A stretch of 64,000 nt of DNA from Mycoplasma sp. (ex Biomphalaria glabrata). Lineage in GTDB: Bacteria > Bacillota_I > Bacilli_A > Mycoplasmatales > GCF-1484045. Where the stretch lies: contig NZ_CP013128.1 of NCBI RefSeq assembly GCF_001484045.1, positions 476,283 through 540,282 on the forward strand, written 5' to 3'. The position numbers and the translations under genes were made by a program. This document shows positions 6,889 through 39,096 of the stretch, piece by piece (position 1 is the stretch's first letter; each line of letters opens with the position of its first letter). The notes beneath the pieces are model-generated. The model had not been told where the DNA came from, did not search any database, and was given only the letters and a program-made list of their open reading frames with translations.

Positions 6889-8109
6889 ATGGCTAAAATA
6901 TTTAAATATAAAGGTGACGAAAAATTTACTCTTGATACTTTAATTAATTTAAAAGATATAGATGTGGATTGAAGCAGAACGGGAGACAAAAATGCTTCTT
7001 CTTTGCACTCAATTTCTTCATATTTAGCAATGTTTGCCCCCGCAATGCCAAGGTATTTTATCGAAAAATTAACACAAGAAAATGATTTAGTGTATGATCC
7101 TTTTTCTGGAAGAGGTACAACGGCACTTAAATCTAGAGAAATGAATAGAAGATTTGTAGGATCTGACCTTAATCCATATGCTTTAGTACTATCAAGATCA
7201 AAAATAGCAACTTGCACTAAACAAGAAGCTATTAATTATGTAAATAATCTTGAAATTAATTTTAAAGTTTGAAAAGATAATGAGAATAATGTTAATAAAT
7301 TTAATAATGAAAATTTTTCTGAACTAAGATATTTTTATTCTAAATCCGTTTTAACTCAATTAATTTTCTTAAGAGAAAATTATGGAATAAATTGAAGAAA
7401 TTTCTCAGATGTTCAAAACTTTGTATTTGGAATAACTTTAGGAATAATGCATGGAAAATTAAAAAAGGATGGTACAACTATTTATTTTTCATTAGATATG
7501 CCTAACACCATTTCTATGGCTCCAAATTATGTTAAAAAGTTTGCCGCTGCAAAAAACTTAATAAAACCAGATGTAAATATTTTTGAATTAATTAGAAATA
7601 GAATTAATCAAAAATATGATGAATTACTATCTAAAAAATTTAAATCTAATATTTATGAAATTAATGCATTAGAGAACAATAAGGATATTGAAAATAATTC
7701 AATTAAATTACTTATAACTTCTCCTCCATATTTAAGTGTAGTTAACTACACAAATTCAAATTGATTAAAATTATGGTTATTAGGTTATGAGAGAAGTAAT
7801 TTAAGAAATGAGATTAAGTTATCAGATAGACTAAATTTTGAAAAATATACTAATTTTATGATTGATTTTCTAGAAAATGTTTATGACAAGATACAAATTG
7901 GGGGATATATAGTTCTAATTGTCGGTGATGTACATAATGAAAAATTAATTGAAAAAGTATGAGAAATAATTCAAAATAAAGTTAAATTTAATTTAAAGGA
8001 AATTTATTGAGATGATAAATATTTACAAACACACAAAATTACAAACATGTTAAATGGTAAAAAAGGTAAAGCAACAACTATCGAAAAAGTGTTGTTATTA
8101 AGGAAGTAA
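6889..8109 (+). CDS. Site-specific DNA methyltransferase (N4-C or N6-A)
   Basis: A 406-residue SAM-dependent DNA methyltransferase. The SAM-binding motif DPFSGRGTT (70-78) comes first and the catalytic TSPPY (277-281) about 200 residues later. SPPY is the amino-methyltransferase signature; cytosine-N4 versus adenine-N6 cannot be decided by eye. The order, motif I before IV, differs from the common beta class. An AGAGGGAT ribosome site precedes the ATG at 6889. No restriction endonuclease is recognisable nearby; the next gene, three bases on, is a ParB-like protein. The pair sits between tyrS and rpsD and looks acquired. Confidence 0.85.
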
Positions 8110-8112
8110 TTT

Positions 8113-8769
8113 ATGGATAATACAATAATAATAAGAAAAAGAATTAACATAAGTCAAATTTTCGCTGCAACAATGAACCCACGAGTGGTAATTGACGAAA
8201 TCCATGCAGGAATAAATGGGGATTATTTTAGAGAGAAACAAAATAATAAAGAAGAAGATGCACTTAAAGATATTTTATCTAATGAGGAAGATTTTAAAAA
8301 TTTTTTAGCTCTAATAACTTCTTTAAGTTCAATGTATAATCCAGTTATAGATATGCCTTATGTAATTAGTTCTAAAAATGGTGAATATATTGTTGTAGAA
8401 GGGAATAGAAGAATTTTGGCATTAAAATTATTATCTAAAATTTTACATATGCCAGAATATGATGAAATTATAGCTAATCTAGATGAAGAAATATCGGTTG
8501 AGTCGTTAGATGATGATGATGAACAAGGATCAAATTCAAATGATAATTCACAAAACAGAATGAAAAATTACAATAAAATAATCAATGTTATAAGAGACCA
8601 CAAAGAAAAAATAACAGAAATAGATGTAAATTTTATTAATGGTGCTGATTCTAATAAGGAATCAGATGGAATAAGAGCTGCAGTTTTTGCAAACCACATT
8701 ACAGGAAAAAAATTGGTAAGAGAAATTGAAATCGCGGTAGAACATTATCCATATATTCCAATATGCTAG
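8113..8769 (+). CDS. ParB/sulfiredoxin-like protein, N-terminal part before a frameshift
   Basis: Residues 1-218 of a ParB-like protein beginning three bases after the methyltransferase. The fold signature is the strand EYIVVEGNRRILALKLL (about 91-107), comparable to the ParB D/E-G-x-R-R box. A loop near 124-138 is very acidic (several D/E in a row). The frame ends at TAG 8767-8769, but homology-like sequence leaves this frame at the A7 run 8706-8712: shifting back one base continues as IGKRNWNRGR and onward. The last 20 or so residues as written are therefore probably not native unless the short product is the real one. Function is unknown. Confidence 0.6.
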   Translation: MDNTIIIRKRINISQIFAATMNPRVVIDEIHAGINGDYFREKQNNKEEDALKDILSNEEDFKNFLALITSLSSMYNPVIDMPYVISSKNGEYIVVEGNRRILALKLLSKILHMPEYDEIIANLDEEISVESLDDDDEQGSNSNDNSQNRMKNYNKIINVIRDHKEKITEIDVNFINGADSNKESDGIRAAVFANHITGKKLVREIEIAVEHYPYIPIC

Positions 8770-13432: not shown

Positions 13433-14118
13433 TAGAAAAAATCATTTGAAAATATTACACGTTCTGCATCTTCTTTAATAGAATATAGATTTAATTTATC
13501 AAAATTATGAAATTTTTTTCGAAGCAGATTTTCTATTTCTAAATTTTTATCTGAATTAAGTTCTTGATTTTTTAATATTAGGTTATATTCTGTCACACAA
13601 TTTTCTAATTCTGAAAAATTATTTTCTATTGAGTTTTTTATAAATTCTTTATTTTTTATATTTTTGTTATTCACTTCAATATTATTTTCAAATTCTTTAA
13701 TTTCTTTGTTGATTCTTTCAATTCTGTTTAAGTTTACATCCTTCATAATTTTTCATTTAGCCAACACTCCAGCATTATGATTTTCATCATTTCCGGTTTC
13801 CATTTTATCAACACTTGTATCAAGATTTTCATTTTCTCTTTTAAGATTCGCAATGTTTTCCTTTTTCTTTTCGATTTTCTTTGCTTCAGATAAATTCAAT
13901 TGAGCTAAATCATTAATTTCTTTTGTTAGTTCTTTTTTTCGATTTTCAGTTATTTCTAAGCATGTGTTAAATGCTTCAGAATAATCAAAGTCAACTTTGT
14001 AATTTGCTCTACTTAAATATTTTTCATCATTAAAAATACTATTTAAACAATTTCAATAAGCACCTATTACATTTGGATTTAAATTAATGTACTCATAAGG
14101 AATAAAATTTGTTTTTTG
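13429..14118 (-). pseudogene. KAP-type NTPase, C-terminal part after a frameshift
   Basis: About 229 codons on the minus strand, open to TAA 13431-13429. It continues the upstream NTPase after a -1 shift at the A6 run (T6 at 14112-14117 on the plus strand). The sequence is very rich in Lys, Glu and Asn with heptad-like spacing, so it is probably coiled coil. A separate start exists at ATG 13746, but the open frame extends well upstream of it. Its stop overlaps the thiI stop tail to tail. Confidence 0.5.
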
Positions 14119-15254
14119 CTCATTTGGTCTAAAATTTTATTAAAAAATTCGTTCTTTTTAATTTCGCGATTAATGAAATTTATAATTTCACTTTTTATAA
14201 ATTTTGAAAAAACTTCATTCGCATCTCATATTTCTTTTTTAATTTTGCGCAAAATTTCATATTCATGTTTTATTTCAAAAATTTCGTGCTTTTTAAATAA
14301 GCGTTCAACTTCTCGAATTGATAACTTTTCACCATCTATTTCAAAATTAAAAACTTGTTCCAAAGTTATTAAAAAATCTTTTGATACATTCTTAAAATGT
14401 TCTTTAAAAAAATTAGAGTAGTCTTGCTTAAAATTATAATAATTAAAATCTACATATTTTTCTATTGGGTATTCATTTATGTCTTTTTTCTCATTATTGT
14501 GTTTTAGCATCTTTAAATTCAATGTCAAAATAATTAAATAATTTTCAAATTCCTGTAATTTCAAAACGGCTTTTAATAAATCTCAGGATAAGGAACCTAA
14601 TCTTTCAATATTATCTATAAAAATAATAGTTTTTATTTGATTATTTTCAATTTTTGATCAATAATCTATTTCTTCTTTATTAGTATCGTTGTTTGGCTCT
14701 TTGAAGTTAAGTTTTCAAGCTTGTTCTAATCCGTAATCACTTTTGATAATGTAACTAAACTCTAATAATGAAAGAAATTTTTTTAGCATCTTTACTCTCA
14801 TTTTATTTTTTATTCCTTCGTCATTAACATCAGACAAGTGAGTTTTTATTAATTTATTTGTTAATTGTGTAATAAATTCTGCTGGAATATCTTTTGAATT
14901 AGAAAATTTTCAAGCATCAATGATTATCATTTTCTCAAATATTTTTGATTCTATTTCTTTATCTATAAAAAGTTTTAAAAAATTCTCAATAAAAAAAGTT
15001 TTTCCGGTTCCTCATGGTGCATTTATAATTGTTAAGGGAGATTTTTTTGCAAGTTTTTCTGGAAAAAATTCGAAATTTTGGTCATTTAAGTACTTACTGT
15101 TATTTTTTTCATATCTACCGTATTCATTTTTAAATTTTTTGAATTCGGATTCAATATTTTTCAAAAAATCTAAAGAAACTTCTTTTAAATTTTTATCATC
15201 AATTTTAACAATTAAGTCTTTTGCATAACCTTTATTTTTCATTATTTCCAACAT
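14079..15254 (-). CDS. KAP-family P-loop NTPase, N-terminal part
   Basis: 391 codons holding a P-loop NTPase: Walker A APWGTGKT (79-86) and Walker B TIIFIDNIERL (about 202-212), the arrangement of the KAP family. KAP NTPases occur in bacteria in signalling and phage-defence settings; the role here is unknown. Walker B is followed by ERL as in KAP proteins. The frame ends at TAA 14081-14079, 12 codons after the A6 run where the native frame appears lost. Start is 15254 or ATG 15242, the latter with GGAAATA at good spacing. The gene opposes its core-gene neighbours and looks acquired. Confidence 0.65.
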
Positions 15255-15366: not shown

Positions 15367-16311
15367 ATGTCAAAATTAATTAAAATAATTTTAGAATCAG
15401 AAAACATAATACTAGCAAGGCATGAATTTCCAGATTTTGATGCACTTGGCTCACAATTTGGATTATTTTATTGAATTAAAGAAAATTTTCCAACTAAAAA
15501 AATTTATTGTTTAGGAACAAACGTTCCAAATAAATTTCCTGATTTATTTTCTGAACAAAAAGATATTTCTGACGAGGTCTTTTCTAATTCATTAATTATT
15601 ATTTGTGATGTTAGAGCAACAGACAGAGTAGATGACCAAAGATATAAGAATTCTAATAATATTTTTGTTATTGATCATCACATCAAAAAAGATGAAAAAA
15701 CTTTTGAACACGATAGTATTATTATCGAAAGCGCTTCATCAACTTGTGAGATTATAGCTCAAGAATTATTATCTGTAATAGATAAATATAAATTACCAAT
15801 CAAATCTATTAATTCATTATTCCTAGGAATAGTAACTGATACTGGAAGATTTTTATATTCAAATACTAATAAGAATACATATGAAGTAGTTTTAAAATTT
15901 AAAGAACTAGGCCTTCAAGAAAAACCGTTATATGACAAACTAACAGTTTCTAATTTAACCTCACGAAAATTTTCTTCTCAGATTATTAATAATATGAAAA
16001 TTACTAAAAAAGGAGTAGGATATTACATTTTAAACCCTAAAGTTCTTAAAAAATCAAAAATGGAATATAGCGAAGCAAAAGACTACGTTTTTGCTATGGC
16101 TGGTATTGAAGAAGTTAAAATATGAGCATTTTGCAGTTACGATATTGATAAAAAACAATATCGTATTAGTTTAAGAAGTAGAAATTATAATGTTAATAAA
16201 ATTGCAGCAAAATATGGTGGTGGTGGTCACATGTATGCTTCTGGATGTAAAGTAGATAAGTTATCAATTTTTAAAAAAATCATTAACGATCTAAACTTAC
16301 TAATAGAATAA
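15367..16311 (+). CDS. nrnA: DHH-family phosphoesterase (NrnA type)
   Basis: A 314-residue bifunctional nanoRNase and pAp phosphatase type protein. The DHH domain has HEFPDFDALGS near the N-terminus, CDVRATDR, and the DHH triad at 103-105; the DHHA1 domain ends in KYGGGGHMYASG. It degrades 2- to 5-mer RNAs and converts pAp to AMP. In Bacillus it also neighbours dnaE. TATAAT at 15355-15360 lies six bases before the ATG with no Shine-Dalgarno, so a leaderless mRNA is likely. It is followed by dnaE after one base. Confidence 0.9.
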
Positions 16312-16312
16312 T

Positions 16313-19288
16313 ATGAATGTTGTTGTTGGAATAAATAGTAGTTACTCAATACTAAACTCACTAATCAAATTAGAAGTTTTATTTGATGAACTAAAAAAAG
16401 AACAAGTTAAATACGTTGGAGTATTTGAAGTAAATAATTTATATTCCTTAAATCGTTTTAATAATTTAGCTATTGAAAATAATTTTGTTCCAATTATTGG
16501 AATTGATATTGAATGTTTAGAAAATAATTTTGTTCTTGTTGCTAAAAACAATAATGGTTACTATCAATTAGTAAAAATTAATAACTTACTAAATAATCAA
16601 TCAAAACCATTAAATTCTTTAACCTCATTAATCGATTTAATAACAGATGATTTAATTTGTATCATCAGAAGTGTTAAAGATGTTAGTAACTTTAAAAGTA
16701 TTAAAAACTTATTTCAAAATTATTTATCTAAATATTCTGATATTAAAAAAATATATTGTCCAAGAATTAGATTTATAAAGAAAAGTGATTCTGAAAATTA
16801 CAAAGTGATTAGATGTATTGCTAATCAATGAAAATTAGAAGAGTTTAAAGAAACTAGTGATTTTGTTTCCTTAGAAGACTTTATTAAATCAAGATTAATT
16901 GAAGAAATTAAAAAAACAACTGAACAGGTTTTTCAATCATGTGATGTTAAATTTGAAAAACAAGAATCACAATTTATAAAGTACCCAACTACAACTACTT
17001 TAACTTCAGCTGATATGCTTAAAAAATATTCCGAGTCAGGTCTTAAAGCGCGATTTTTGTCAATGACTAACATTAATGAAAAAATATATTACGAACGTTT
17101 AAATTATGAATTAAAAGTTATTAATAATTTAAACTTTAATGATTATTTTTTAGTTGTGTATGATTACACAACATATGCTCGTAAAAAAGGAATTATGGTA
17201 GGTTTTGGGCGAGGGAGTGCGGCTGGTTCATTAGTATCATATTGTCTTGGAATTACAAATGTTGACCCAATTAAATACAATTTAATTTTTGAACGATTTT
17301 TAAATCCAGATCGTAAAAGTCCACCAGATATAGATATTGATTTTCAAGATAATCGTCGCGATGAAGTTTTTAATTACATTTTAGAAAAATATTCATCAAA
17401 TAATGTAGCAAACATTATTACTTTTCAGACAATTAAAGTAAAAATGGCAATCCGTGATATCGGAAGAGTTCTTGATATTCCATTACATGAAATTGATGCA
17501 CTTGCCAAATTAGTTTCCATTCATCATGATAATGATTTAGATTACGTTGTTAATCGTACTTTAGCAATTAAGAAAAAAATTGCTGAGAATAAAAAAATCA
17601 AAAAATTATTTGATATTTGTTATGCCATTATTGATAATCCAAGACAAGTTGGACAACATGCTGCTGGAATGATTATGTCAAAAAAACCATTGAATGATTT
17701 CATTCCTATTAACATTAACGAGGATGGTTTAGCGGTAACGCAATTTGACATGAACGAATTGGAATATTGAGGTTTGTGAAAAGTTGATATTTTAGGATTG
17801 AAAAACTTAACAATTCTAAAAGATATTCTTATTTTAATTTCTAAGAATCACAAAAAAACAATTAGTTTAGAAAAACTACCAATTAATGATAAAAAAACAT
17901 TTACATTACTTTCTAGTGCTAATACGCTAGGAATATTCCAATTGGAATCATACGGAATGAAAAATGTTTTAACGATGGTTGAACCTAATAAATTTAGTGA
18001 TTTATGTGACATCATTAGTCTTTATCGACCAGGTCCGCAAGACCAAGTTGAATTATATGCTAAAAGAAAAAAAGATAATGAACAAATCAAACTTGATAAC
18101 GATGTTCTTGAAAAAATTTTAAAACCAACTTTAGGAATAATTATTTATCAAGAACAAATTATGCAAATAGCTTCTAGTTTTGCCAATCTAACCTTGGCAC
18201 AAGCTGATAATCTCCGAAGAGGGATGAGTAAAAAAGATCAAAATTTAATTCTTCAGCAAAAAGAATTATTTATCAACGGAGCGATTAAAAAGGGATATTC
18301 AGAAACTGAAGCTAATCGAATTTTTGATTTAATTGAAAAATTTGCAGGATATGGTTTTAATAAAAGTCATGCTGTTGCTTATGCTTTATTGGGATATTAT
18401 TTGGCTTATTTAAAAGCAAATTATTCTGAAGAATTTTATACATGTCTTTTATCTAATAATCTAGGTGATTATAAAAAATTATCTGAGTACATGCGTGAAA
18501 TTAATAGTTCAAGTAATGTAAAAGTTGGTAATTTAAAATTAAACGAAACAAAACATTATTTTGTATTACTAAATCAAGAAATTATTCCATCAATTTATAT
18601 AATAAAAGGTTTTGGAAGAAACTATTATGAATTATTCGATAAAGAAAGAAAAATTAGTAATTTTAATAATGACCCAATTGAAACTATTACACGATTAGTT
18701 CGCGCTAAGATTTCTGAAAAAATAATTCAATCAATGATTGTCTTAAATGCTTTTCAATCAAATAAATATAACCAAACAACCTTATTAAAAAATTTAAATA
18801 AAATTGTAAAATATAGTCATATTGTTATCAATAAAAATAATGAAATAGATTTTTCATTAGTCCCAAAAATAGAACTAATTCAAGAACAAGAAGATTATCC
18901 ATTACTATCTAATCTTGAAGAAGAATCAATTGGTTTTAATATTTATTATTCATTAGATAAAGTCATTAAAAAACAAAGAAATATTCCTTTGACTATTAGT
19001 GAAATTAAAAGAAACAATATAACTAATTTCAAAATATGCGTTCAAGCAACATATGTAAAAGAAGTTAAAACAAAAAACCAAAAAAATATTTGTTTTTTAC
19101 AAACTAAAGATTACACAGGAGAATTAGATTTTGTCGTATTTGAAAATAAATACGAAGAATTAAAACCTAAACTTAAATCTACTAATTATTTAGTTATAGA
19201 TGCGACTAAATCAATAAAAGATAATAAGATATCGTACATTGTAAAAGACATAGAATTGATCGAGGTCAATAATGACAAAACACAATAA
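16313..19288 (+). CDS. dnaE: DNA polymerase III alpha subunit, DnaE type
   Basis: A 991-residue replicative polymerase subunit. An N-terminal PHP-like domain appears degenerate. The palm has GFGRGSAAGSLV (297-308) and the catalytic PDIDIDF (338-344), followed by helix-hairpin segments and a C-terminal OB-fold that gives FLQTKDYTGELDFVVF. In Firmicutes, DnaE extends primers before PolC takes over; PolC would be elsewhere. Three in-frame TGAs are Trp. It starts one base after nrnA and overlaps the next gene by 17 bases, so this is one operon. Confidence 0.95.
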
Positions 19289-21098
19289 TGAACTATGAAT
19301 AATTGATTTAAGTGCCTTACTTTATCGAATTCATTACGGAATGGGTAATATCGTTTTAAAAACAAAAACTGGGCAACCGACTGCTGTTATTCGGGGAGTA
19401 ATTAATATTATCGAAAGATTTATTTTTGATCATAATATTACTCATATTGCCTTTGCTTGTGATGTTTCTGGAGAAACATTTCGCTCAATGAGTTATGAAA
19501 ACTATAAAGCCAAAAGAAAACCAATGCCAGAAGACTTAGTAGCTCAACTTGAACCAATTAGAGAGTATTTGAATTTGAGAAAATTTAGTTCTTATGCAAA
19601 AGAAAAATATGAAGCTGATGACGTGATCGCTACAATCGCAACAAGAGCAATTCAAGAAGATCCTAATATTCGTGTGAAGATATTAACATCTGACAAGGAT
19701 ATGTTGCAATTAGTAAATGACAATATTTCTATTCTTCGTATTACATCAGGGTTTAAAAATTTCGATGAATTTAATATTTATAACTTTGAGAAAAAAACAA
19801 AATTATTACCATCTCAAATTATCGACTTAAAAATCATGCTTGGGGACAAATCTGATAATTACCCAGGTATTCGTGGGATCGGCGAAAAAACGGCTATGGA
19901 GTTATTGAAACAATATGGTAGTTTGGATGGGATTTATGAAAATTTAGCTTCCATCAAAAGCAATAAACATCGCGACGCATTTATTAATGAAAAGAGCAAG
20001 GTAACGATGATTCGCGAATTAGCAACCATTATCGATGATGTTGATATCGATTTTCGCTTAAAAAATAATTTTATTAATTATAATGAAATTTTTAATAATT
20101 GAAATGGAATTAAAAATTATATCGATAAATATGAATTATATAGTATTAAAAATAATTTAAGAGGAAGATATCATAATCAAACCAGAGTAATGATAATTGA
20201 TCTTGGAAGTAATTCAATAAAATATAGTATTTATTACTGTTTATCTGAACATAACTTTAATTTAATTGAGCACAAAAATAGATTTATTAAGTTAATTGAT
20301 TTTGTTGAAAATTCACAAATTAGCACAGAAAAAATGGCAACAATTGTTGATGAAATTAAAAAATTTGTTGAGCCATCTCTTAAAAAATACAATATCCAAT
20401 TAGAGAAAGTGATAGCTTTTGGAACTGAATGAATTAGATTAATTAAAAATCGTAAAGAATTTGTTGAAATGTTCCAAAAAGAATTGAATATTAAATTAGA
20501 AATTATTTCGCCTGGCGCTGAATGTAAATATAATTGATTGGCATATAAAAATGATCAAATCCATTTAAATAACGTGATTGTTATGGATATTGGTGGAGGT
20601 AGTGTTGAATTTATTCATATTGAAGAAGAAACTCCTCGCGATAAATATTCAATTTCAATGGGATTGAATGTTTTAAAAAATAGAAATTGCTCAACTAAAA
20701 TGATTTTTGAACCAGAACTTAAAAATGTGGAAAAAGATATCAAAAAACTTCTTCCAGATATTTCAATTAAAGAACATCCATTTATTTATTGTAGTAGTGG
20801 GGCATTTTATTCTGTTATGGAATTATTGCAATATTTTGAAAACCTCAAGTTTATCAATAAATTTGTATCCTTATCGGAATTAGAAAATTTATATAAAGAA
20901 ATTGTTAATTATGATTTTAATGACTTTTATAAAATTAATACATTTAATCAAGCGCGTGCTGATATTATCAAAATTGCTTTATTGATTTTGATTTGTGCTG
21001 GCAAAAAATTCGGAGTTGAAAATTTTGTTCTTGGACAAAAATCAATTCGCGAGGGATATTTAATTAATTTTATTAATCAATTGAAAAAGGGGAAATAA
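19272..21098 (+). CDS. 5'-3' exonuclease fused in frame to a Ppx/GppA phosphatase domain
   Basis: One uninterrupted 608-residue frame. Residues 1 to about 300 form the PolA-type 5'-3' exonuclease (flap endonuclease): DLSALLYR, EADD (114-117), TSDKDML (139-145) and GDKSDNYPG (191-199) with the helix-hairpin-helix. There is no polymerase domain, as usual in Mollicutes. Residues from about 307 form a Ppx/GppA domain with phosphate loops DLGSNS (310-315) and DIGGGS (439-444). No TAA or TAG lies between them; the first in-frame ATG of the second domain is 20190. Separate translation from 20190 is possible, but its only purine tract (AGAGGAAGA) is over 20 bases upstream. Confidence 0.85.
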
Positions 21099-21925
21099 TG
21101 CCAGAACTTCCAGAAGTTGAAACCGTTAGAAGATTTTTAGATAAATCTATTTCACACAGCAAAATTGTTAATATAAATATTTATGTTCCTAAATCTATTA
21201 AAAATGCTTCCCAAGAGGATTTTAAGTTGAAATTAATAGGTCAGCGTATTGAACACATTTCTAGAAAAGGAAAACACATTTTATTTATTTTAGATGATTA
21301 TGTTTTAATAAGCCATTTGCGAATGGAAGGAAAATATTTTTATCAAAAAGTAGATGATGAAATTAATAAAAAACATTTAATGATGGAATTTTTCTTGTCT
21401 AATGGAATGGTATTAAGATACCTTGATACGAGAAAATTTGGAACTTTTCACTTAATTGAAAAAAAACAATGAGAAAAAAATCCGCTAGTAACAAAAATTG
21501 GCAAAGAATTATTTGACGAAGATATTACTGTTAACTATTTAAAACAGTCATGGCATAAACGAAAAAATGCTACTATAAAATTAGTTTTACTAGAGCAAAA
21601 CATAATTGCTGGTATTGGAAATATTTATGCTGATGAAATTCTTTTTAAGGCTAAAATACTACCGACAAGAAAAATTCACGAACTATGCGATTTAGAATAT
21701 CAAGCAATTATTGATGCTTATCGCGAAATAATGGCTCATGCCATTGAACATAAAGGAACAACGATTGCTACATTTCACAGCCAGCAAGGTGTCTCAGGGA
21801 ATTATCAAAAATTTTTAAAGGTGTATGGTCGAAGCAAACAGAAATGTTTTATTTGCGGAACAGAAATTAAAAAAATAAAATTAAATGGCAGAGGAACTCA
21901 TTATTGTCCATCTTGTCAAAAATAG
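21098..21925 (+). CDS. fpg: Formamidopyrimidine-DNA glycosylase
   Basis: A 275-residue base-excision repair enzyme that removes 8-oxoguanine and nicks the abasic site. It keeps the catalytic Pro2 and Glu3 (MPELPEVETVRR), the Lys in SRKGKHI, the HLRMEGK strand, GIGNIYADE for the helix-two-turn-helix, and a C-terminal zinc finger with CFIC and CPSC. Its ATG overlaps the stop of the exonuclease fusion. The fpg-coaE-dnaB-dnaI order follows the Bacillus chromosome. Confidence 0.96.
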
Positions 21926-21934
21926 GAGATTATT

Positions 21935-22555
21935 ATGATTTATTGTGTAACAGGGAGACCAGGGTCTGGTAAAACAACATTGTTAAAAACTATTGAAGGT
22001 CGTTATGCAGCTAAAGTACATGTTATTTATGCTGATGACATTGTTAAAAATACTTTGTATGTTGAACATCATCCATGTTTTTCTCAATTAGTTAGTAATT
22101 TTGGTGAAAAAGTAATTGCTAAAGAAAACAAAGATAACAAAACTATCGATCGCAAAGTGTTATTGAATATTATTTTTGATAATAAAGAACAGCAAATGAA
22201 ATTACAAAAAATTGTTTGGCCATTCCTAAGAAGAGAAATATCAAAACAATTAATTTCGGATAAACGCCCAATTAAATTAGTAGAATTAGGTGCTTATTTA
22301 AATAGTGATGGAGAATTTGATGATTTATTTGACGAAGTCATCTTGATTCATCGCAATGACTCATCAATTTATGATACATTAAGAGAAAAAAATCATTGAA
22401 GTGACGGGTATATTGAAAAATTCTTAAATGTTTTTTTCTCAGATTATAATCGCAATGATTTTAAATTAATTGTCGATAATATTGAAACCTTGGAGAGAGC
22501 TGTTATACAATTAGAATTATTGACAGGAGTTTTTGTATCATACGACTATGAGTAA
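21935..22555 (+). CDS. coaE: Dephospho-CoA kinase
   Basis: A 206-residue P-loop kinase for the last step of CoA synthesis. Walker A is GRPGSGKTT near residues 7-15. The usual D-A-D of CoaE appears as YADDIV, and WPFLRREI matches the P-x-[LV]-R-R-x-I region. The C-terminal half is more divergent than usual. The assignment rests on these motifs and on its position directly after fpg, as in Bacillus. AGGAG precedes the ATG. CoA also supplies the phosphopantetheine that AcpS transfers to ACP. Confidence 0.82.
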
Positions 22556-23963
22556 TGCTGATATTTTAAATGAAGATTTAGATATTACTAAGCCTGAGCT
22601 GGAAACGATAAAAGATGCTACTTCACCAAAAAAGAATACTTTGAAGAAGCTAAAAAACGATCCAACTACCGCTGATGTTTATCAAATTTTTACAACAACA
22701 CTATTTTATGATGTTGACGACATGTCGCTATACTTTTTGTATCAACCAATCGTTGGGGTGGATGCAATTAGTATTTATAAAGTTCTTCTTTCGCAAGTAT
22801 CAGCTAACTACCACAAAGTAGTCTCTTATGAACATGATTATTTACTAGCATTACTTGGTTTAAATTTTGATAATTTTATTGTGGCAAAAAATAAACTTGA
22901 ATCAATCGGATTAATTTCTACATACATTAACACTAACGCAAGTTGAAGTGTTGGAGATAAGAGATGTTTTTACTATGTATTAAACCCACCATATACTCCA
23001 AAAAGTTTCTTTGACCACTTTTTGCTAGATCAAAAATTACTATTAGTTCTTGGTGAAGAACACTACACTAATACTAAAAATTTATTTAGAAGAGAAACAC
23101 CAGACTGAACAACGATGAAGGATGTTTCAAAAAATTTTGATGAGTCTTTTGAAAAATTTAATCTTAATGTTAAAAATTATAAAACAATGTCTAACAACGA
23201 TATTGTTTCACGTGAGAAAATTGATTTAGTTGGTAAATTTTTATATGAGATTAATCGTCACTTGGAAATTGTTGGTTCAGAACACCGAATTGAAAATAAA
23301 AATCACGTTCAAGGTTTATATAATTTAATGTCAGAATACAATGTTAATTATTTAATGATTGCTCGAGCAATTAAGAGTTTAGAAATTAAAGGTGAAAAAA
23401 TTTCTAAGAAAAATATTGAAATTGAAATGCTAGAACGTATGGAAATTGCCAAGAAAATTGATATGCATGGTTTAAATGATTATAAGAACTCGCTAGTTAA
23501 TGAAAATATCGAAATTGGATCAGTTCAAGTTAAACAAGAAATTGAAAAGAATACATCAATCACTACAGAAGATACACAACCAAAACTTCATTTGGATTGT
23601 TTAAATAACGATTTCGAAGAAGATAGTTTAGATTGTTGTAACTTAAATGATGTTTTTAAAACAATATCTTATCGCGATTTATACTCAAAATTATTTGATG
23701 TAGAATTAACAACAAGCACAAAAAATTCTTTTAACCAATTACTGACATTAATAACTCAAGAACAATTGAATTGAATTTTAGCCTTTAACTATATTAAACA
23801 AGGATATTACAATAAAAAATACACTGAGGTTATTGCTAAATCTTTACAACAGCGAAATTCAGAAAATTTTCAGAGTTTTCTAGAGTCAACAGGGATAAAA
23901 TCTTTGAAGGATTTAAAGAAAAATTTAACATCCCTGCATGATCTTTTAAATAACGAGAAATAA
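22533..23963 (+). CDS. dnaB: Primosomal protein DnaB (Firmicute type, DnaD-like)
   Basis: A 476-residue replication initiation and membrane-attachment protein; it is not the replicative helicase. The N-terminal domain starts with FYDVDDMSLYFLYQPIVG, which is typical, and the C-terminal DnaD-like helices contain LNWILAFNYI. A low-complexity acidic linker joins them. Start choice is open: TTG 22533 has AGGAG three bases before it, while ATG 22548 has none. Either overlaps coaE. The stop overlaps the dnaI ATG, so the two primosome proteins are coupled. Confidence 0.85.
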
Positions 23964-24877
23964 TGAAACAATTATCACACGAATTAAAAGTTAAAAAATT
24001 TAATGATTTAAAAAAAGATATTTATGATAATTCCTACCTAGTTCATTTGATTAAAAAAAACAAATTAACAGATACGAATTTAATAGATGGCATTTTGAAT
24101 ATTGAATTATTTCTTCATTACGATAAAACTTGTGACTCATGTAATGGAATCAATGAGTGTCATTTTAAACCGATTGGTAATTTTCAAAATGCCATTTGAG
24201 ATGGCGAACATATTGACAATAAATTAACAATGTGTCCATTTGGGCAAGAAAAATTTGAAAAGATAAGTAATTTTCAAAACAATATACTACCACTTTCTAA
24301 TATCGATAATTCATTTATGGAATTACGTTTAGAATCGATAAAAGCATGAAATGAACGTCAAGAGAAATTAATTAAAGCACTCCGAAAATTGTATTTTAAG
24401 GATAATCACAATCGTGGTCTTTATATTTTTTCATATTCAGGTAATAAAAAAATTGAAACTAAAAAAAATGAACTTAAAAATTCTTCTATCGGTAAAAGTT
24501 ATATTTTTTCAGTCTTTGCAAATCAACTTGCCCAAGAAGGTAAAAAAGTTGCCTACATTGATACACTTAAATTGTTGAGAAACATTAAAAATTCATGAAA
24601 CAAACCTGACGAAGAAAGGAAATATTTTTCCCTAGAGGAATTAGAAAACGTTGATGTTGTTATTTTTGATAATTTTGGATTAGCTAAATGACAAGATTGA
24701 TTTCATATTGAGTATTTGGAACCAATTTTAGATCATCGTATGAAATTCAATAAATTGACATTCTTCATTTCAGATCGTGAATTGAAAACAATTTGTAATG
24801 AAGAAAAAAATTATGATTGCTGCATGTTGTTGAAATCAAAAATTGAAAGATTAATAGAAAAGGAAATTTCAATCTAA
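23963..24877 (+). CDS. dnaI: Helicase loader DnaI, divergent AAA+ core
   Basis: A 304-residue DnaI/DnaC-like helicase loader. The N-terminal domain has the CDSC zinc-type motif followed by a late His and Cys, as in DnaI. The AAA+ core has RGLYIFS, FANQLAQEGKKVAYID and a sensor-like strand FFISDRE. Walker A is abnormal: the usual G-x-F-G-x-G-K-T/S reads as SSIGKS (174-179) after an extra lysine-rich stretch (about 158-174). Walker B is FDNFG (235-239) with Asn where a second Asp is usual. ATP hydrolysis may be weak or lost. It follows dnaB with a one-base overlap. Confidence 0.83.
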
Positions 24878-24878
24878 T

Positions 24879-25805
24879 ATGAACTTACGTCCACTTAATT
24901 ATGAATCATTAAAAGAAATTTTAAACGAAGTAAAAAAAAGAAATGATTTACTGCATTCTAAGTGAACAACAATTATTTATTTTTTTTATAATCACTTAAA
25001 AAATTACGAAAATTTTTATTATCAAGATGATGAAAAGTTTTTTTTAGTTTTTGTAAGTCATGAAAACAGAAAGATAAAGCATTTAAATTTAATTGACGAT
25101 AAACCACAAATTGAAATAATTGCTCAAATAATGGAAGATATGAAAATAAAAGATTACAAAATAATTTTCCTACATCGCATTCACAACATTATAGCAACTT
25201 TAAAAAATAATAATCTCTTAAAAAATTTAACTGTTTACAATTCTTTTGTTTATATATATTTAACAGAAAAATTGATCGGGTTTCCTGGTAAATCAATGCA
25301 AAAGAAACGCAATTTATATAACAATTTTCTTCATAATTTTGCTGATAAAATTGAGATTATTGATATTAAAAATGCTAACAAACAAGAACTAGTTAACTAT
25401 GTTGAAAATTGACGAACTGCTAAAATTGAACATAGTGTTGATCATGAAGAAAAGTATGGTTTGTATCATGAATGCTATACGACTCAACAAATTCTTTTAA
25501 ATTGAGAAAAACACGATTATAGCGGAATTGTTTGAAAGTATGAGAATAAAGTCCAAGGAATTATTTTTGGGAACGTCACAGATAAAAATAATGAATTAGT
25601 GGAAATGATGGTTTCAAAGACTTCTATTGAATTTAAAGGTGCTTATCAATATATGTTATCTGAAGTTTTGAGAAGGAATTTTCCTAACATCAAATACGTT
25701 TCTCTTGGTGATGATGAGTGTAATCCAAGTTTAAGAAAAAACAAATTGTCATATCACCCAGCTTACATTGTTGATAAATGAGATATTATATGCGAATTAG
25801 CTTAG
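24879..25805 (+). CDS. DUF2156-like acyltransferase-fold protein
   Basis: A 308-residue protein that looks like the DUF2156 / lysylphosphatidylglycerol synthase C-terminal fold, a tandem GNAT-like family. Supporting pieces are LTEKLIGFPGKSMQKKRNLYNNF in the middle (key residues G-K-x-x-x-K-K-R-N) and the C-terminal NPSLRKNKLSYHPAY. Enzymatic role and substrate are unknown. There is no membrane segment. It starts one base after the dnaI stop and overlaps the next gene by 16 bases. Linkage to replication genes may reflect only operon packing. Confidence 0.65.
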
Positions 25806-26635
25806 CAAAAGAAATTGATTTTGAAAATATTAAAGCTAGCTGAAAAATAGCTTTTAAAAACGATTCACCTATTGATTATATTGATTGATTTTTTGAAAAA
25901 AATTACAACCCTAGTTGCACTTTCGTTTTAAAGAATAAAAAACAATTAATTAGTTCGCTACAATGAAAAGAATGCGAACTTCAATTTAATGATAAAAAAC
26001 AAAAGGCTGCAATGATTTTTGGAATTAATACTTTGGAAGAATTTCAAAACCTTGGGTATATGAAAAAAATTCTTGAACATGCCATTAAATTATTATCAAA
26101 GAAATATGATCAAATTTTAATTCAAGCATATAATTGAGATTTATATCGCAAATTTGGATTTGTAAATATTGCCTATAAATATCATTTTTCAATTGATTGA
26201 AATGAATTGATTGGTCAAAAAATTAATTTCATCAAGAATCCATCTAATCAATCACTTTGCGCTATTTATCAGCAATTTATAAATAAATTTTCATTCTATA
26301 GTCACCGACATGAAAATGATTTCCAATTAATTAAAGAAGAAAATAAATTTTTCGAAGTTGATTTTTATGCTTCCAACAATGCATATGTGGTGTATTGTAA
26401 AACTAATAACACAATTTTTGAAACTTGTTATAAAACTACTAATGACTTAGAAGATCTATTAATTTCTATTAAAGAAAATATCCCAATTAATACAATTGTT
26501 TTACCACTTTACCAAGACAAAGTTAATTGAGCAAAATATGAAAAAGAAGAATTATTCTTACAAATTTTATCATCACCAAAAGTTCAGATTGAAAAAGCAA
26601 AATTAACAAATATTAACTTCCTAGATTGAGTGTAA
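25790..26635 (+). CDS. GNAT-type N-acetyltransferase family protein
   Basis: A 281-residue protein. The N-terminal part fits a GNAT fold: MRISLAKEIDFENIKASW, then NTLEEFQNLGYMKKILEHA where the acetyl-CoA loop would be, then YRKFGFVNI. The long C-terminal half, with a sterol-carrier-like alternation, recalls Eis-like proteins. The acceptor substrate is unknown. It overlaps the DUF2156-like gene, so both may act in one modification step. It is the last gene of the operon before gapA. Confidence 0.6.
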
Positions 26636-38595: not shown

Positions 38596-39096
38596 ATGAA
38601 AATAACTCAAGTATTACATAAATATTTACCAATTATTACGTCAATTTTATTTCTAGGAATAGTAGCAGAATCAGTAATAATCCTTAATTATTATTTTACG
38701 CACCGTAATTTAGATTTAGGAACTAAATCAATTACTATCGAATTAGATGCCAATGACGGAACAAAATTTCAAGAAAATTTTCAAACAGAAGATGGATTGT
38801 TAGGTGATATAGTTCACGACCACGGAATTATTTCCGGGGCGCAGCCAGTTACTGCTCCATCAGAACAGGTTCTTTTTCAATTTGCATCATATACTGCAGG
38901 AATATATGTCACTGCAATGGCTGAATTTGATAGTAAAACTCAAACTTATCAATGAGATGCACCGCAGAACCACGAAGCAATATTATACTATCAATGAGAT
39001 AATCAAAAAAAAGTGTGAGTTCAACCTAATTTAGGAGTAAGTGATTGACATATTCATAATGGTGATATCTATAAATTTGATATTGAAAAATTCTAA
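38596..39096 (+). CDS. Membrane-anchored protein with a DUF4430-like domain
   Basis: A 166-residue protein with an N-terminal membrane segment (about 12-33) that probably anchors it outside. The remainder has strands and turns recalling DUF4430 (transcobalamin-like): TEDGLLGDIVHDHG, YVTAMAEFD, then Trp-rich pieces and GDIYKFDIEKF at the end. Four in-frame TGAs give Trp. There is no lipobox cysteine. GAGGGGAGTTGG precedes the ATG. The role is unknown; ligand binding or adhesion is possible. The next gene is a decayed envelope gene. Confidence 0.6.

Follow-up and report, generated by a model that had tools for sequence, protein, structure and literature searches.

In-frame fusion of a PolA-type 5'-3' exonuclease to a Ppx/GppA phosphatase in a mycoplasma replication operon: an apparent merger of operon neighbours

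Single-domain members of the Ppx/GppA family, represented by the profile TIGR03706, the Aquifex aeolicus structure 1t6c and M. tuberculosis PPX1 (Rv0496), are about 300 residues long. In PPX1, Arg84 and Glu112 are catalytic residues, and Asp135 and Glu142 bind metal (PMC3411833). The PolA-type 5'-3' exonuclease is in turn known as a stand-alone protein of Mollicutes or as the N-terminal domain of Pol I (PF02739 plus PF01367; NF011547). In the genome of Mycoplasma sp. (ex Biomphalaria glabrata), here called G000 (647,830 bases in one contig, GC 28%), the two are found in one reading frame, within a stretch of 64,000 nucleotides that was analysed as a whole and is referred to below as the window. 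The exonuclease part is as complete as its stand-alone counterparts, keeps the carboxylates that were checked and occupies the same polA slot downstream of dnaE, but where those counterparts stop or are followed by a polymerase, it runs in frame into a phosphatase. The phosphatase part shares its length, fold and catalytic residues with the single-domain enzymes, whereas its N-terminus is attached to a nuclease.

Read with TGA as tryptophan (code 4), positions 19272-21098 of the forward strand form a single frame of 608 codons, which contains four TGA codons (W9, W277, W387 and W422) and has its lone TAA at the end. The initial annotation had proposed that one frame joins a complete PolA-type exonuclease to a complete-looking Ppx/GppA domain, and this was borne out by translation, by Pfam and by TIGR03706. 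The Pfam matches in the fused protein are 5_3_exonuc_N at residues 8-166 (E 1e-44, 152.6 bits, cut-off 34.3), 5_3_exonuc at residues 180-265 (E 8e-29, 100.5 bits, cut-off 40) and Ppx-GppA (PF02541) at residues 327-599 (E 2e-33, 116.8 bits, cut-off 27). The initial annotation's reading of the joint was equally correct: the TGA at 20100 encodes W277, and the 29 codons from 20103 to 20189, up to the ATG at 20190, contain neither TAA nor TAG. The two alternative frames across the joint meet stops at 20153/20158 and then at 20174/20188. The length of the open joint is in itself unremarkable, given that a random frame at 28% GC stays open by chance over 14 codons with a frequency of about 36% and over 32 codons of about 10%. 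We count it as real because the homology on both flanks lies in one frame and is interrupted by only about 10 residues. The fused frame is thus confirmed in the assembly (Table 1).

Table 1. The fused gene, its parts and the surrounding operon (positions in the window; G001, G007 and G014 are comparison genomes)
Feature	Position	Strand	Basis
nrnA/DHH-family phosphoesterase, operon head	15367..16311	+	sequence reading and synteny; same order in G001, G007
dnaE, 17-base overlap with fusion start	16313..19288	+	ORF list, spacing
5'-3' exonuclease (flap endonuclease) half, residues 1-294	19272..20153	+	Pfam, PDB alignment, residue check
Linker, residues 295-303 (NLRGRYHNQ), about 10 residues	20154..20180	+	between end of exonuclease homology and first strand of Ppx model
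Single-domain Ppx/GppA half, residues 304-608	20181..21095	+	Pfam/NCBIfam, alignment, AlphaFold2 model, Foldseek
M307, sole in-frame ATG near the joint; unlikely start	20190..20192	+	Shine-Dalgarno calculation, Ppx model
mutM (formamidopyrimidine-DNA glycosylase), 1-base overlap with fusion stop	21098..21925	+	ORF list; also after ppx in G001, G014
coaE, dnaB-like, dnaI, remainder of replication operon	21935..24877	+	ORF list, spacing

With respect to the exonuclease half, a PDB alignment places it over most of its length on M. smegmatis Pol I and Taq, and all the positions checked for the conserved metal-binding carboxylates of PolA-type 5'-3' exonucleases are filled (D12, D64, E114, D116, D117, D141, D143, D192 and D195). 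The family A polymerase domain PF00476 has no match in the fused protein or anywhere else in the G000 genome. The most likely role of the exonuclease half is the removal of RNA primers and flaps, as in other bacteria that have retained no other portion of PolA.

The Ppx/GppA half is nearly full length, since TIGR03706 (NCBIfam) spans residues 307-600 with all but the outermost positions of the profile (3-298 of 300). The score of this match, 140.5 bits, lies below the curated cut-off of 307, and for this reason we do not claim an exopolyphosphatase as such. Both phosphate loops that the initial annotation had assigned to this half are there, 310-DLGSNSIK and 439-DIGGGSVE. In an alignment of the Ppx half with 29 diverse bacterial Ppx sequences, to which it is only 19-25% identical, R389, E417, D439 and E446 correspond to Arg84, Glu112, Asp135 and Glu142 of PPX1 and are invariant across all 30 sequences. 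An AlphaFold2 model built from residues 285-608, i.e., from the Ppx half without the exonuclease, has a mean pLDDT of 90.8, and its best PDB matches in Foldseek are the Ppx/GppA structures of Aquifex (1t6c, E 8e-24), E. coli (1u6z, TMq 0.81) and H. pylori (6pc1). Judged by these conserved residues and domains, both halves of the protein look functional.

A fused frame need not give a single product, and the start signals in the window bear on this. Calculated Shine-Dalgarno pairing is -7.1 kcal/mol at 19272 and -8.4 kcal/mol at the mutM start at 21098, as compared to +0.1 kcal/mol at the ATG at 20190. The median in the window is -5.6 for 40 listed starts, a set that includes two non-start positions (pfk and rsmH) without changing the overall picture, and -1.7 for all 1441 ATGs, 77% of which match or beat the ATG at 20190. 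Furthermore, the first beta strand of the Ppx model comprises residues 304-311 with M307 inside it, such that a start at M307 would truncate this strand, and the free-standing Ppx proteins of two relatives, G014 and G001, have extra residues ahead of it. From the lack of a Shine-Dalgarno signal at 20190, the position of M307 within the first strand and the upstream extension of the relatives' proteins, we conclude that a single polypeptide is made, and we take a fused protein to be the most plausible interpretation of the locus.

Two other readings have to be weighed against this. The frame could be fused and separate exonuclease and Ppx proteins nonetheless be made, either by internal initiation at 20190 or by proteolysis of the linker. 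The model, though built without the exonuclease, has low confidence in the linker and in the stretch immediately preceding it, and some genes in the window do manage without a Shine-Dalgarno site; as 9 of the 40 listed genes pair poorly, internal initiation is conceivable. However, a signal at 20190 that is no better than background makes separate products very improbable in our view. The other reading is an assembly artefact. A run of five A (20148-20152) lies at the end of the exonuclease, and a one-base assembly error in it could mask a stop precisely where this protein would naturally terminate (20153-20158), in which case a separate ppx would start from the ATG at 20190. The stops of the other frames at 20153/20158 would yield an exonuclease of about 294 residues, close to the 300 residues of that in G001, and the two genes are indeed separate in G001 and G014. 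Against this stand the absence of a Shine-Dalgarno signal at 20190, its location inside the first Ppx strand, the further upstream residues of the free-standing relatives and the intact state of the remaining operon genes in the ORF list, such that we regard an artefact as improbable.

The single fused protein would be encoded within a compact operon, nrnA-dnaE-[exo::ppx]-mutM-coaE-dnaB-dnaI, in which the spacing between genes ranges from -23 to +9 bases. Several neighbouring genes deserve mention in their own right. At the end of the operon, dnaI is followed by two genes that overlap by 28 bases (24879-26635, forward strand), one of the LPG_synthase_C (FemAB-like) type and one for a GNAT acetyltransferase, and just ahead of the operon a KAP-family P-loop NTPase is encoded on the opposite strand (14079-15254, reverse strand). 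Further away, an N6/N4 DNA methylase gene is followed by a gene for a 218-residue protein without a Pfam match (6889-8769, forward strand); this protein reads like a ParB/nuclease-type partner, and the pair may be what is left of a restriction-modification or defence module. Next to the dUTPase gene, a 166-residue protein is encoded (38596-39096, forward strand), which carries a hydrophobic segment at its N-terminus and matches nothing in Pfam.

A search with the Ppx half found Ppx in 3 of 320 genomes of the order, namely G000, G001 and G014, which represent three families; the comparison genomes all lie outside the family of G000. All three genes sit in one slot, between polA/exo and mutM, each immediately after the gene for the PolA-type nuclease and in a genome in which PPK1 was not found. 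In G014 (C39, L063 1-2869), the end of a PolA with polymerase domain overlaps ppx, which is followed by mutM and coaE. In G001 (C1, L062 9438-11481), the order is nrnA-dnaE-exo (300 residues)-ppx (365 residues)-mutM. The order of genes in the polA/exo-ppx-mutM neighbourhood is thus identical in all three, and nrnA-dnaE lies upstream in G001 and also in G007, a genome of the same genus as G014, which has nrnA-dnaE-polA. What differs is the joint, since the genes are separate in the two relatives, with a gap of 43 bases in G001 and a short overlap behind a full PolA in G014. Relatives with two separate proteins, which the initial annotation had counted against a fusion, therefore do exist, but as they belong to other families they explain its origin and leave the fusion itself standing.

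The series from G014 through G001 to G000 explains the fusion as operon neighbours that were merged in the course of genome reduction. An ancestor would have carried ppx between polA and mutM, the polymerase domain would then have been lost from polA, and loss of the exonuclease stop codon would finally have joined the neighbours exo and ppx. In a tree of 35 exonucleases, G000 and G001 both have very long branches and their placement is not settled; because the tree places neither of them, the order of these steps is one that we infer. It looks as though two adjacent genes of an operon have been merged, and not as though a new type of machine has arisen.

The architecture itself was sought more widely. 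Among the matches listed for whole-protein searches of up to 395 genomes of the class and of 295 genomes of the phylum, only G000 spans residues 1-608. Likewise, among the matches listed for the search of the 320 genomes of the order with the Ppx half, there is no second fusion. At 80 distant bacterial Ppx loci, which are the matches listed for a profile search with a three-sequence Ppx alignment and do not include G000, no exonuclease was found near Ppx, and no report of an exonuclease-Ppx/GppA fusion was found in the literature. By these searches the domain architecture is apparently new and a singleton among the genomes covered, while its parts are known. Frames of 411-900 residues at the exonucleases of some relatives were considered as other fusions and rejected, as those checked are full PolA proteins. 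Weak PF02541 matches in family f5 and others were also rejected as Ppx, being short, in other frames and absent from the search with the Ppx half; we take them to be candidate other ASKHA-fold proteins, e.g., rod-shape proteins.

With respect to the substrate of the Ppx half, polyphosphate or (p)ppGpp had been proposed. Neither PPK1 nor PPK2 was found in the G000 genome, and no PPK1 in G001 or G014, whereas all three encode a RelA/SpoT enzyme, which in G000 is a long Rel of 723 residues with HD_4, RelA_SpoT and TGS domains. Polyphosphate is thus the less likely of the two, and the presence of Rel, where no polyphosphate kinase was found, tentatively favours (p)ppGpp or a related nucleotide. 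The argument is a weak one, because M. tuberculosis PPX1, which is also single-domain, does not hydrolyze pppGpp (PMC3411833).

The idea that two enzymes have been brought onto one polypeptide of the replication operon fits the data, but the proposed coupling of primer and flap removal to hydrolysis found no support. Such coupling would mean that, at the replication fork, the fusion ties the processing of flaps or primers to the clearance of (p)ppGpp or some other phosphate compound. It would be in keeping with the long Rel of G000 and with the fact that, in three families of the order, Ppx has stayed next to the gene for PolA or the exonuclease. However, plain operon inheritance can account for the adjacency, and in most of the order the exonuclease occurs without any Ppx, so that we consider functional coupling unlikely. 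We are just as doubtful about a truly bifunctional enzyme, in which a phosphohydrolase for alarmones or other nucleotides, tethered to the flap nuclease, would clear (p)ppGpp during lagging-strand primer processing, or in which the alarmone level would tune the nuclease. Instead, we favour two active sites that are probably independent on one chain, with co-expression as their sole link. One two-domain protein of 608 residues would be made from the ATG at 19272; its N-terminal half would provide the cell with its 5' nuclease for RNA primers and flaps, the Pol I polymerase being absent, and its C-terminal half would act as a Ppx/GppA phosphohydrolase. Taken as a whole, this account of one fused protein, a stepwise merger of neighbours and a nuclease and a phosphohydrolase working independently has a good probability of being right; the parts of it that we infer are the succession of steps in evolution, the substrate and the independence of the two activities.

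The relatives of this mycoplasma show likely intermediates, from a PolA that overlaps ppx, through a bare exonuclease followed by ppx, to the fusion, and the locus is therefore a clear example of operon neighbours merged through genome reduction. It also draws attention to the few Mollicutes that retain a Ppx/GppA protein without any known polyphosphate kinase having been found, always adjoining a PolA-type nuclease. Whether alarmone turnover is linked to replication or repair in minimal cells can thereby be put to the test.
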